Positions 31,779 through 39,895 of a DNA stretch of 64,000 nt are shown here, one piece after another. The stretch is from Pelomonas sp. Root1444 (GTDB lineage: Bacteria; Pseudomonadota; Gammaproteobacteria; Burkholderiales; Burkholderiaceae_C): NCBI RefSeq assembly GCF_001426885.1, contig NZ_LMFP01000011.1:241089-305088 (forward strand), given 5' to 3'. A program made the position numbers and the translations under genes. The stretch's first letter is position 1, and every line of letters starts with the position of its first letter. A model generated the notes under the pieces. That model made no database searches and was not told the origin of the DNA. It saw only the letters and a program-made list of their open reading frames with translations.

Positions 31779-32972
31779 ATGGAATTTCTCGACGTCCCGA
31801 CGGTCCTCAAGGTCAGCGCCCTCTTCAACCTGATGGCGGCGCTGGCCTGGCTGGTGCTCGCGCAGACCTTCCGCATCGCGCCGCGCGCCGGCCGGCTGAT
31901 GGCGGCGGGTCATCTCGTGCGCATCGCGTCGCAGGGCTGCGGCGACTGCATGGTCGGCTGGCCCGCACTGCTGCGCCAGGCCGTCCCCGAGTTCGGCCTG
32001 CTGGCCTGCACCGTGCTGCTGCTGCTGGCCCTGCGCCGCATGCTGCGCAGCCGCCGGCGCCCGCGCGACATCGCCTGGGTCGGCGGCCTGGGCGCCCTGG
32101 GCATCACGGCCGGCCTGGCCAGCGGCTCGGGCCTGCTGCCGCAGCTGGCCAGCACCGCCAGCGCCACGGTGCTGGCGCTGCTGGCCGTGCGTGAGGTCGT
32201 GCGCGGCATCGGCCAGCAGCTCTCGCGCCCGGTCACGCTCTGCACGACGCTGCCCTTCGCGGCCATGGCCGCGCTGGGCATCGGCCACGGCGCCGAGTTG
32301 CTGCTCGTACCCGGCTGGGACGGCCATGTCCTCAACGGCGAATGGCCCACGCCGGCGCGTGCCGTCCTGTGGCTGAGCGTCACGGCCAGCATCACGCTGA
32401 GCCTGATCGCGCTGATGATCTGGCGCGTCATCACGCGCATCCAGCACCTGACCTACCGCGACCCGCTGACCGGCGCGCTCAACCGCCGCGCCTTCGAGCA
32501 GGCGCTCGGCCAGGCGCAGGCCCAGTTGCAGCGCGGCCATGGCTTTGCGCTGGCCATGATCGACATCGACCACTTCAAGCACATCAACGACGCGCACGGC
32601 CACCAGGCCGGCGACGCGGCGCTGCAGCATTGCGTGCGCCTGTGGCAGGCGGAACTGCGCGAGGTGGACCGCCTGGGCCGCCTGGGCGGTGAGGAGTTCT
32701 GCGCGCTGCTGCCGCTGAGCGCACCGGCCGACCTGCAGACCGCCGCGGCCGTGGCGGAACGCCTGCGTACCCGCCTCGCTGCCGCGCCGCTGCACTGGAA
32801 GGGCATGGCGCTGCCGCTGTCGGCCAGCTTCGGCGTGGCCCTGCCCGCGGCCGGCGACGCCGCGGGCGAGATCGGCCTGGCCCGGGCCGACGCCGAGCTC
32901 TACCGCGCCAAGACCGAAGGCCGCAACCGGGTCTGCGTGGCGACGCCCCTGGGCGCGATGGCGGCCGCATGA
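31779..32972 (+). CDS. membrane diguanylate cyclase (GGDEF), first of a tandem pair
   Basis: This 397-residue inner-membrane protein has about six hydrophobic segments in residues 8-225 and a C-terminal GGDEF domain (about 230-390). That domain shows YRDPLTGALNRRAF, AMIDIDHFKHINDAHGH and the active-site GGEEF. The inhibitory I-site RxxD is present as REVD, five residues ahead of GGEEF. It should make c-di-GMP under product inhibition. The membrane part is not a recognised MASE domain. Its stop overlaps the ATG of the second cyclase. Confidence 0.92.
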   Translation: MEFLDVPTVLKVSALFNLMAALAWLVLAQTFRIAPRAGRLMAAGHLVRIASQGCGDCMVGWPALLRQAVPEFGLLACTVLLLLALRRMLRSRRRPRDIAWVGGLGALGITAGLASGSGLLPQLASTASATVLALLAVREVVRGIGQQLSRPVTLCTTLPFAAMAALGIGHGAELLLVPGWDGHVLNGEWPTPARAVLWLSVTASITLSLIALMIWRVITRIQHLTYRDPLTGALNRRAFEQALGQAQAQLQRGHGFALAMIDIDHFKHINDAHGHQAGDAALQHCVRLWQAELREVDRLGRLGGEEFCALLPLSAPADLQTAAAVAERLRTRLAAAPLHWKGMALPLSASFGVALPAAGDAAGEIGLARADAELYRAKTEGRNRVCVATPLGAMAAA

Positions 32973-37202: not shown

Positions 37203-39895
37203 CTACCGCCCGGCCGCGCATCCGCAGCGTGCTGATGATGACGCTGTTCATCACCGCGGCGCTGGCCTTCGTCGCAGGCGCGGGCGGCCTGGTGCTGGTG
37301 CAGCGGGTGACGCTGGAGCAGCGCGCCCGCGAGCAGGTCGAGCCGCTGGCGCAGCTGGTGGCCGTCGGTGCGGAGTCGGCCGTGGCGTTTGCAGATGCTC
37401 AGCGCGCGCAGGAGATCCTGGACTCGCTGCGGCGCAACCCGCTGGTGCTGTCGGCCGAGCTTCGGCTGGCCGATGGCCGCGTGCTGGCGCGGCTGCCGGC
37501 CGGCGCGCCACAGCGTCCCGCGGAGGCCGGCCGGGCCGAGCCGGGTTTCAGGCTGCTCACCGAGCGCGGCGCGGCCGAGTTCGTGCACGCGCTCGACGGC
37601 GACGCCCGGCTCGTGCTGGTCACCAGCCTGGCCGAGCTGCAGCGCCAGAACCTGGCCGGCCTGACGGCCTTCGGCGCCGCGCTGGTGCTGCTGCTGGGGG
37701 CCGTGGCCATGGGCCTGCTGTGGGCGCTGCAACGCTCGATAGGCCGGCCGATCGCCACGCTGGCCGCGGCGGTGGACGAGGTGCGCGTCGGCGCCGACTA
37801 CGACCGGCGCGTGCCCGTCGAGGGCGCCGACGAGCTGGCCCGGCTGGGCGAGGGCTTCAACGCGATGATGGGCGCGCTGCACGAGCGCGACGCCGAGTTG
37901 CGCCGCCAGCACATGGCGCTGGAGGACACGGTCCGCCAGCGCACCGACGAACTCCGCCAGGCGCGCGACGCGGCCGAGGCCGCCAGCCTCGCCAAGAGCG
38001 CGTTCGTCGCCAACATGAGCCACGAGATCCGCACGCCGATGAACGCCATCATCGGCATGTCGGGCCTCGCGCTGGAAGGCGCGCTGCCGGCCCGCGAGCG
38101 CAGTCACGTGCAGAAGGTCAACCGGGCGGCGCAGTCGCTGCTCACCATCCTCAACGACATCCTCGACTTCTCCAAGATCGAGGCCGGCAAGCTGGTCGTC
38201 GAGGAGCTGCCCTTCGACCTCGCCGAGGTGCTGGACAACCTCGCCACGATGGTGGGCGCGCAGGCCCAGGTCAAGGGGCTGGAGCTGCTGTTCAGCGAGG
38301 ACGGCGACCCGCCGATGCACCTCACGGGGGACCCGGTGCGGCTGGGGCAGGTGCTGCTGAACCTGACGAGCAACGCCATCAAGTTCACCGACCACGGCGA
38401 GGTGCAGGTGGCGGTCGCCGTGGCGGCACGCGAGCGCACCCGGGTGGCGCTGCGCTTCGAGGTCAGCGACACCGGCATGGGCATTTCTGACGAGCTCCGG
38501 CAGCGGCTGTTCGAACCCTTCGAGCAGGCCGACGCGGCCACCAGCCGCCGCCACGGCGGCACGGGGCTGGGGCTGACGATCAGCCGGCAGCTCGTCCACC
38601 TGATGGGCGGCGATCTCGCTGTGGACGGCGCTCCGGGCGGCGGCAGCCGCTTTTCGTTCACGCTGAGCCTGCCGGTGCTGCCCGACGCGCTGACCGCGGC
38701 GCCGGCGGCCGCATGGCCCGGCCGGCGCGCGTTGGTCGTCGACGACAACGCCAAGGCACGCCAGTTGTTCGCCGCGACGCTGGCACGCAGCGGCATGCAG
38801 GTCGACATCGCCGGCAGCGGCGCGCAGGCGCTGGAGCGCGCAGCCCAGGGGCCGGCCTACGACCTCGTCGTGCTGGACCACCGCATGCCCGGCATGGACG
38901 GGTTGGCATGCGCGCGGCGGCTCGCGGCCGCGCCTGGCCGGGCGCCGGCCGTGGTGCTGCTGACCGACGCGTCGCCCGAGCCAACGGAACCGCGCATGGC
39001 GTCGCTGGCGGTGTCCGTGGTGTTGAACAAGCCGATGACGCCGCGCGCCTTGCTGGACGCCTGCACCGAGGCCCTGGGGGGCGGCACGCGGGCCACCGCT
39101 GCGGAGCGACCGGTCGCCGCGCCCAACGGCGGCGTGTGGCTGGACCACGCACGCCTGCTGCTGGTGGAGGACAACGAGATCAACCGCGAGCTGGCCGCCG
39201 AGCTGCTCAGCCGGATCGGCGTCAGCGTGGACATGGCCCGCAACGGTCGCGAGGCGCTGGAGCGGCTGGAAGCCGCCGACTACGACGCCGTGCTGATGGA
39301 CTGCCAGATGCCCGAGATGGACGGCTTCGAGGCCACGCAGCGGCTGCGCCAGCAGCCGCGGTGGCGCGACCTGCCGGTCATCGCGATGACCGCCAATGCG
39401 ATGCTGGGCGACCGCGAGCGGGCGCTGTCCGCCGGCATGAACGACCACGTCGCCAAGCCCATCAACGTGGCGCACCTGTACGCCACCATCGCCCGCTGGG
39501 TGAGGCCGCGTGACGCACAAGCCGGCAGCGTTTCCACACGCCCGCCCGCCATCGACCTGGCCGGCGCGATGGCGCAGCTGGGCGGCGACGCCGCGCTGCT
39601 GCGGCGCGCGCTGGACAGCTTTGCCGAGCGGTACCGGGACTTCGGGCACGACTTCGACACCGCGCGTCGCGCGGGCGACGTGGCGGCGCTGCGGCGCATG
39701 GGGCACGACCTGCAGTCGCTGGCCGGCACATTCGGCATGCGCGCGCTGCGCGAGGCCGCGCAACGGCTGGAGCAGGCCTGCGCGGACGGGCTGCCTGGGG
39801 ACGGCATCGACCCGCTGCTGCGCGACGTGACCGCCGCGCTGGAGCCGGCGATCGCCGCCATCGCGTCAACGTCCGGCGAGCTGCCGCGCCCCTGA
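37199..39895 (+). CDS. hybrid sensor histidine kinase with two receivers and Hpt
   Basis: This 898-residue inner-membrane kinase starts at a GTG preceded by GCGGAGG. The order is TM1 (about 11-33), a periplasmic CHASE8-like region ([20 protein letters not shown]), TM2, HAMP, HisKA with NMSHEIRTP (His275), HATPase_c (N box [18 protein letters not shown]), REC1 (Asp560 in VVLDHRMPG), REC2 (Asp701 in [12 protein letters not shown]) and a C-terminal Hpt domain (His836 in [12 protein letters not shown]). All phospho-sites are intact. There is no DNA-binding output domain, so the phosphate must pass to a separate response regulator. The CHASE8-like sensor matches the YfiR partner type. Confidence 0.92.

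Follow-up and report, generated by a model that had tools for sequence, protein, structure and literature searches.

A conserved TonB receptor, YfiR and CHASE8 hybrid kinase gene set in Pelomonas sp. Root1444 as a candidate trans-envelope signalling unit

The 64,000-nucleotide stretch of Pelomonas sp. Root1444 DNA analysed here (contig NZ_LMFP01000011.1, positions 241,089 to 305,088; hereafter the window) contains a nearly gapless run of three genes, encoding a siderophore-receptor-like TonB-dependent receptor, a YfiR-family periplasmic protein and a hybrid histidine kinase with a CHASE8 sensor domain. Comparative analysis of 122 YfiR loci shows that the TonB receptor, YfiR and kinase combination is a genuine and conserved signalling set. 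It is of the Yfi type, with the receptor apparently substituting for the outer-membrane lipoprotein YfiB. We consider it probable that the three proteins make up a trans-envelope signalling unit of the Yfi kind, with the ligand-loaded receptor acting on YfiR and thereby relieving the kinase.

The gene layout put forward in a first-pass annotation of this DNA, including a pair of GGDEF genes upstream of the set, is confirmed by the coordinates and by Pfam assignments (Table 1). The YfiR gene starts 2 bases after the end of the receptor gene, and the kinase gene, with a GTG start, overlaps the YfiR gene by 4 bases. YfiR has another possible in-frame start, a GTG at 36624. Its use would give a 4-base overlap with the receptor stop codon, mirroring the kinase/YfiR overlap, and translational coupling of all three genes is possible. 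The YfiR match to PF13689 clears its cut-off (24.9 bits), and the CHASE8-like pattern previously noticed in the kinase sensor corresponds to a match to PF17152 above the cut-off of 27 bits, over 69 of 102 model positions. In place of a GGDEF output, Pfam places HAMP, HisKA, HATPase_c, two receiver (REC) domains and a histidine phosphotransfer (Hpt) domain behind CHASE8. All five genes are under purifying selection, with ratios of nonsynonymous to synonymous polymorphism (pN/pS) of 0.32-0.47 relative to two same-genus loci (L177 and L178). The set was found to contain 0 promoter-like sites and 3 terminator-like sites, against 2.4 expected.

The 122 loci comprise 59 from a 150-genome phylum sample, detected with PF13689 (one below the cut-off), 60 from 120 relatives, found with the TOL_0243 model and biased to the TonB type, a locus from a Nitrospinota metagenome-assembled genome (L155), which was the sole locus recovered by a scan of genome contigs with the window YfiR, and two of three plasmid matches. 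Flanks were fetched for all 55 phylum-sample loci outside the window's own genome, and loci were classified with custom-built profiles; distances are those between match midpoints, and one genus (g38) is heavily sampled. In the phylum sample, YfiR was detected in 40 genomes and CHASE8 in 50 (over the cut-off in 43), with CHASE8 directly downstream of 48 of the 59 YfiR genes and YfiR directly upstream of 48 of the 58 CHASE8 domains over the cut-off. CHASE8 lies directly downstream of YfiR at 99 of all 122 loci, with kinase (69), GGDEF-EAL (16) or GGDEF (11) outputs, none of these being found in the remaining 3. The adjacency of YfiR and a kinase, which the first-pass annotation had treated as a unit, hence recurs in many genomes.

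A same-strand TonB receptor was located just upstream of YfiR at 83 loci and within about 4.5 kb at 99. At the genus level, for which 119 of the 122 loci were used, TonB-linked YfiR occurs in 35 of 45 genera, OmpA-linked YfiR in 9 and the complete TonB-YfiR-CHASE8-kinase set in 21; restricted to the phylum sample, the figures are 19 of 22 genera for TonB-linked and 1 of 22 for OmpA-linked YfiR. The receptor gene may precede YfiR, follow the kinase or stand between CHASE8-GGDEF and YfiR. The last of these orders (CHASE8-GGDEF, TonB, YfiR) was observed at L193, L194, L198, L201 and L203-L205 among the relatives and at L116, and TonB receptors therefore also adjoin YfiN-like diguanylate cyclases. 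In each of the listed loci from the relatives, kinase and receiver frames lie further upstream. On the Sphingobium indicum plasmid pSRL1, consecutive genes are annotated as TonB-dependent receptor, YfiR family protein and ATP-binding protein, the last of which has a CHASE8-HisKA-HATPase-REC architecture. At L122 (genome G102, 5545-8187, minus strand), a single 881-residue frame joins a YfiR domain, a coiled-looking stretch, a kinase and a receiver, an apparent fusion in which YfiR could serve as a built-in kinase input.

The window's own genome encodes four YfiR proteins and four CHASE8 domains, together with 64 Plug matches (63 over the cut-off). Each of the four YfiR genes lies between an upstream TonB receptor gene and a downstream CHASE8 gene, all in the same orientation, and this regularity in a genome with so many Plug matches indicates a grouping beyond chance. 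The three other YfiR proteins share 26-29% identity with the window YfiR, and are thus not recent copies of it. The CHASE8 output is a kinase at three loci and GGDEF-EAL at one (L006); L005 presents the same kinase-REC-REC-Hpt arrangement as the window and L007 a kinase-REC protein. Behind the L005 kinase lies a gene encoding a REC-GAF-GGDEF-EAL protein (2449-4770, minus strand), a likely route from that kinase to cyclic di-GMP (c-di-GMP).

YfiB-like OmpA genes were identified directly downstream at 10 of the 122 loci, all of them of the CHASE8-GGDEF type and none TonB-linked, with L108 presenting the textbook order of YfiR, CHASE8-GGDEF and OmpA. A TonB receptor and a directly downstream YfiB-like OmpA protein were found together at 0 of the 122 loci, a pattern that replacement of YfiB by the receptor would predict, and a search of the window locus with an OmpA profile seeded from L108 returned no YfiB-like lipoprotein. 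The earlier suggestion that the receptor replaces YfiB as outer-membrane input is borne out to this extent. Three genera harbour both TonB-linked and OmpA-linked YfiR, at different loci. On a YfiR tree of 121 of the 122 rows, with many weak branches and no root inferred, at least 2 changes of partner and at least 7 of output are required; the starred branches force only one OmpA-type origin.

Table 1. Features of the window locus
Feature	Position	Strand	Evidence
Membrane GGDEF protein, neighbour	31779..32972	+	PF00990, 123.2 bits
Second membrane GGDEF protein, neighbour	32969..34129	+	PF00990, 141.2 bits
TonB-dependent receptor, siderophore-receptor-like	34273..36627	+	Plug 57.4 bits, barrel 120.6 bits
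Receptor N-terminal segment, 12 residues	34399..34434	+	Weak match to the segment of most YfiR-linked receptors
YfiR-family periplasmic protein	36630..37202	+	PF13689, 132.1 bits
Hybrid histidine kinase, CHASE8-HAMP-HisKA-HATPase-REC-REC-Hpt	37199..39895	+	Pfam
CHASE8 periplasmic sensor domain of the kinase, residues 39-107	37313..37519	+	PF17152, 45.5 bits

Many YfiR-linked receptors carry a D-L-S-L-E-E-L-type segment ahead of the TonB box, the position of which in the window receptor is presumed. A regular expression for this segment discriminated poorly, matching 26 of 43 and 19 of 54 linked receptors but also 14 of 52 unlinked ones, and was replaced by profiles trained on 43 linked receptors. 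The analysis used 97 of the 99 linked receptors (L007 and L164 were lost to a length filter). As controls served 52 of the 60 unlinked receptors in a single genome, no plug match having been obtained for 8 of the 63 sequences fetched. Held-out linked receptors scored above the best unlinked receptor in 40 of 54 cases with a 24-column profile and in 42 of 54 with a 14-column profile; in the GGDEF-EAL group around L006, scores mostly did not exceed this level. The window receptor reached 4.7 bits with the 24-column profile (best unlinked 1.9; 1 of 3000 shuffles as high) and 2.1 bits with the 14-column profile (best unlinked 0.1; 13 of 3000 shuffles as high), and its relative at L283 scored 16.0 bits against the same best unlinked score of 1.9. 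In the phylum sample (the A2 profile having been trained on linked receptors), proximity to YfiR was seen for 46 of the 57 receptors whose match began at position 4 or earlier, and for 1 of the 42 in which it began later; without the rows used in the query, the former count was 33 of 44. Much of this sharing is owed to common descent of one receptor subfamily. The window and L283 receptors, which belong to another subfamily, are hence the telling cases for a segment common to YfiR-linked receptors, with a weak match in the window.

The usual YfiR-linked receptor family corresponds to TOL_0244 (NF053590), NCBIfam having families both for this receptor and for its YfiR-like neighbour TOL_0243 (NF053591). 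The receptors of L005 (763 bits), L007 (818) and L216 (666) exceed the NF053590 cut-off of 645, whereas L006 reaches only 114 bits. In the phylum sample, with at most 8 candidates scored per genome, 39 of 47 matches above 250 bits (a limit of our own) lay within 7 kb of YfiR, as did 14 of 16 over the NCBI cut-off; one of 53 rows, which covers the second part of a receptor split in G076, was left out of the counts. One TOL_0244-family receptor (L284 in G063, 652 bits) resides in a genome with no YfiR match, an orphan that could show the receptor acting alone.

The window receptor scores 27 bits against NF053590, far below the cut-off, and falls short of the TonB-dependent siderophore receptor family TIGR01783 (163.6 bits against a cut-off of 223.5), so that its siderophore-like character is one of resemblance only; its best match in the Protein Data Bank (PDB) is the enantio-pyochelin receptor. 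The only Pfam domains listed for the window receptor at E up to 0.1 are Plug and barrel, and STN is not among them. The L005 receptor matches 94 of the 99 linked receptors, but not those of the window, L177 and L178, and the 11 other match rows of the window receptor in its own genome include none of the three other YfiR-linked receptors. Its plug region, however, matches some of the linked receptors from elsewhere, with a best score of 60 bits (L083, E=1.8e-11), about as well as it matches siderophore receptors of its own genome (best 44 bits, in a separate scoring run), which speaks against a full receptor exchange. Receptors of the window type were identified in two of 399 genomes of the order, the window's own and G479 (E up to 1e-60, at most 2 candidates scored per genome), and the window-type set was also found in G151 and G161 among 19 same-genus relatives. 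In all four genomes the receptor gene precedes YfiR and a CHASE8-histidine kinase-REC-REC protein, although G151 and G161 were found via their YfiR and only G479 via the receptor itself.

Among solved structures, the relatives of the window YfiR are entries for the P. aeruginosa protein (best E=2.1e-8). The window protein scores just below the cut-off of the TOL_0243 family (122.7 against 125 bits) and well below that of the NCBIfam sequest_YfiR family (NF053586; 37.5 against 85), and a PHROGs search with it returned nothing. Its Cys65 and Cys104 align with the P. aeruginosa cysteines counting as 71 and 110, the pair named for that protein (PMC4887326), and both are also present in L177. YfiR proteins of complete YfiBNR systems are reported to be marked by four conserved cysteines (PMC3375315), of which the window protein has only the Cys71/Cys110-aligned pair outside its signal peptide. 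The 39-residue spacing of Cys65 and Cys104, which the first-pass annotation had cited in favour of homology, does align with the P. aeruginosa pair, but it lends weak support and was dropped as key evidence, both cysteines being retained in 64 of 99 TonB-linked YfiR proteins. On the kinase side, AAVVF is the presumed YfiR-binding motif of P. aeruginosa YfiN (PMC3375315); the window kinase has SAVAF at this position, and L177 and L283 have AAVAF. A relaxed pattern for this motif, chosen after the misses of a strict one were known, fits 104 of 107 CHASE8 domains. The strict pattern fits 69 of 107 and also matches the membrane helix of the window kinase, and was set aside.

Under the proposed mechanism, the siderophore-type receptor would sense its ligand in the outer membrane, and periplasmic YfiR would convey the receptor state to the CHASE8 domain of the inner-membrane kinase. 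YfiR would hold the kinase off without ligand, and the ligand-bound receptor would draw YfiR away, probably via its N-terminal segment. The freed kinase would then autophosphorylate and pass phosphate via its two REC domains and Hpt to a response regulator encoded elsewhere. The reported grip of the YfiB N-terminal part on YfiR in YfiBNR (PMC4887326) provides a template for such docking. We infer the joint action of the three proteins, the direction of the signal, the receptor-YfiR contact and the phosphorelay.

Several observations weigh against this mechanism. No response regulator gene adjoins the window kinase, and the REC-GGDEF gene seen downstream at 11 of 68 kinase loci has no counterpart beside it. 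At 9 of 68 kinase-type loci no TonB receptor was found by the 4.5-kb same-strand criterion, and TonB-linked L092 has an OmpA match, excluded as a partner, 5.8 kb away on the other strand. Held-out linked receptors scored no higher than the best unlinked receptor in 12 of 54 cases with the 14-column and 14 of 54 with the 24-column profile, and the segment match of the window receptor is itself weak. Receptors with the segment (11 of 57) and NF053590 matches above 250 bits (8 of 47) also occur away from YfiR, some of them on other or short contigs. Finally, the window YfiR interface differs from that of P. aeruginosa, since Met and Ser replace Phe162 and Glu163; the Phe162-aligned residue is Met in the window, L177 and L283, and Phe in 83 of 98 TonB-linked YfiR proteins.

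A different use of the same genes is conceivable, in which the receptor only imports a substrate that YfiR or CHASE8 then binds, with no contact between receptor and YfiR, and the operon combines a transporter with its own sensor. P. aeruginosa YfiR has been reported to bind small molecules, using the same pocket that accommodates Phe57 of YfiB, albeit with dissociation constants (Kd) in the millimolar range (PMC4887326), CHASE8 has been assigned to a Cache-like sensor clan (PMC8846402), and the lack of a listed STN domain in the window receptor would fit plain import. Import followed by sensing nevertheless leaves unexplained why TonB receptors and YfiB-like proteins, which do not transport, share none of the loci examined, and why receptors share an N-terminal segment, and we regard it as unlikely.

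Mere neighbourhood, with the receptor co-transcribed with the YfiR-kinase pair, for instance as a target of the kinase, would accommodate the TOL_0244-type receptors found away from YfiR and the kinase loci lacking a receptor, but the recurrence of the pairing in most of the genera, in several gene orders, and at every YfiR locus of a receptor-rich genome makes it improbable. More improbable still is that YfiR serves the kinase as a redox or envelope-stress sensor through its cysteines, with the receptor secondary. HmsC and YfiR have been tied to redox (PMC8846402, PMC3375315), and the window and L177 keep both aligned cysteines, yet 35 of 99 TonB-linked YfiR proteins lack at least one of the two and the second P. 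aeruginosa pair is absent from the window YfiR.

The tandem diguanylate cyclases, whose genes overlap by 4 bases, had been considered part of the system, a claim that did not hold beyond the genus. Orthologues of the pair adjoin the set at L177 and L178, in two same-genus genomes, but are absent beside it at L283, in another genus with the window-type receptor. The GGDEF frame present about 3.4 kb upstream at L283 is a different, longer one, and a further frame the size of a gene intervenes. The pair was therefore rejected as part of the unit. The next gene after the kinase, in the opposite direction, presumably encodes an M13-type peptidase.

The window set resembles YfiBNR of P. aeruginosa and HmsC/HmsD of Yersinia in pairing a YfiR-family periplasmic protein with an inner-membrane CHASE8 (PAS-like)-HAMP protein, and YfiBNR in having an outer-membrane partner. 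It differs from YfiBNR in its hybrid kinase output, in a TonB receptor neighbour instead of an OmpA-like lipoprotein and in the missing cysteine pair of its YfiR. It falls among the divergent Yfi systems of Malone et al. 2012, who described a modular Yfi system in which YfiN-like sensors carry kinase, GGDEF-EAL or Hpt outputs, mostly without yfiB (PMC3375315). The swap of a GGDEF for a HisKA-REC-REC-Hpt output proposed in the earlier annotation is real at the level of domains, but kinase outputs have been known since 2012 and are not new. The word TonB does not occur in the main text of that paper, and no paper naming TonB receptors as a YfiR partner was found among open PubMed Central (PMC) papers, judged by titles and the beginnings of abstracts. 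Within this literature, the TonB receptor as a general YfiR partner and the other receptor type of the window appear to be undescribed.

Among better-known receptors, TonB transducers such as FoxA, which act with an anti-sigma factor and an extracytoplasmic function (ECF) sigma factor in cell-surface signalling, are reported to signal with their periplasmic N-terminal part (PMC11637429). The proposed unit would likewise carry a signal inward from a TonB receptor, but without a listed STN domain and through YfiR and a kinase. The TOL_0244 receptor was reported to be up sevenfold on a C28 alkane relative to Tween 80 and to share 40.3% similarity with OmpS of Alcanivorax, itself reported to be needed for alkane detection (PMC6304351). 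OmpS of Alcanivorax dieselolei, a TonB receptor, has been reported to sense alkanes and trigger chemotaxis (PMC6304351, PMC5174103, PMC9788540); it is related to TOL_0244, whereas the window receptor represents another subfamily.

A broader interpretation can be advanced tentatively. TonB receptors may be the usual outer-membrane input of YfiR systems, with YfiB in the minority, the segment before the TonB box may dock YfiR, and barrels of different subfamilies may be interchangeable, as with a siderophore-type barrel standing in for TOL_0244 in the window. We hold this possibility slightly lower than we otherwise would, because of the plug-region matches and because G151 and G161 were found via YfiR. 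If true, it would give extracellular ligands a modular way of reaching phosphorelays and c-di-GMP that is distinct from signalling through anti-sigma factors. YfiR-sensor pairs without YfiB have been known since 2012, and the text of PMC3375315 names no other outer-membrane partner for them. Were the TonB receptor that partner, widespread uncharacterised receptors and kinases would become testable as ligand sensors, TonB receptors would have another way of signalling in addition to anti-sigma factors, and there would be a candidate path into the cell for OmpS/TOL_0244-type alkane receptors.

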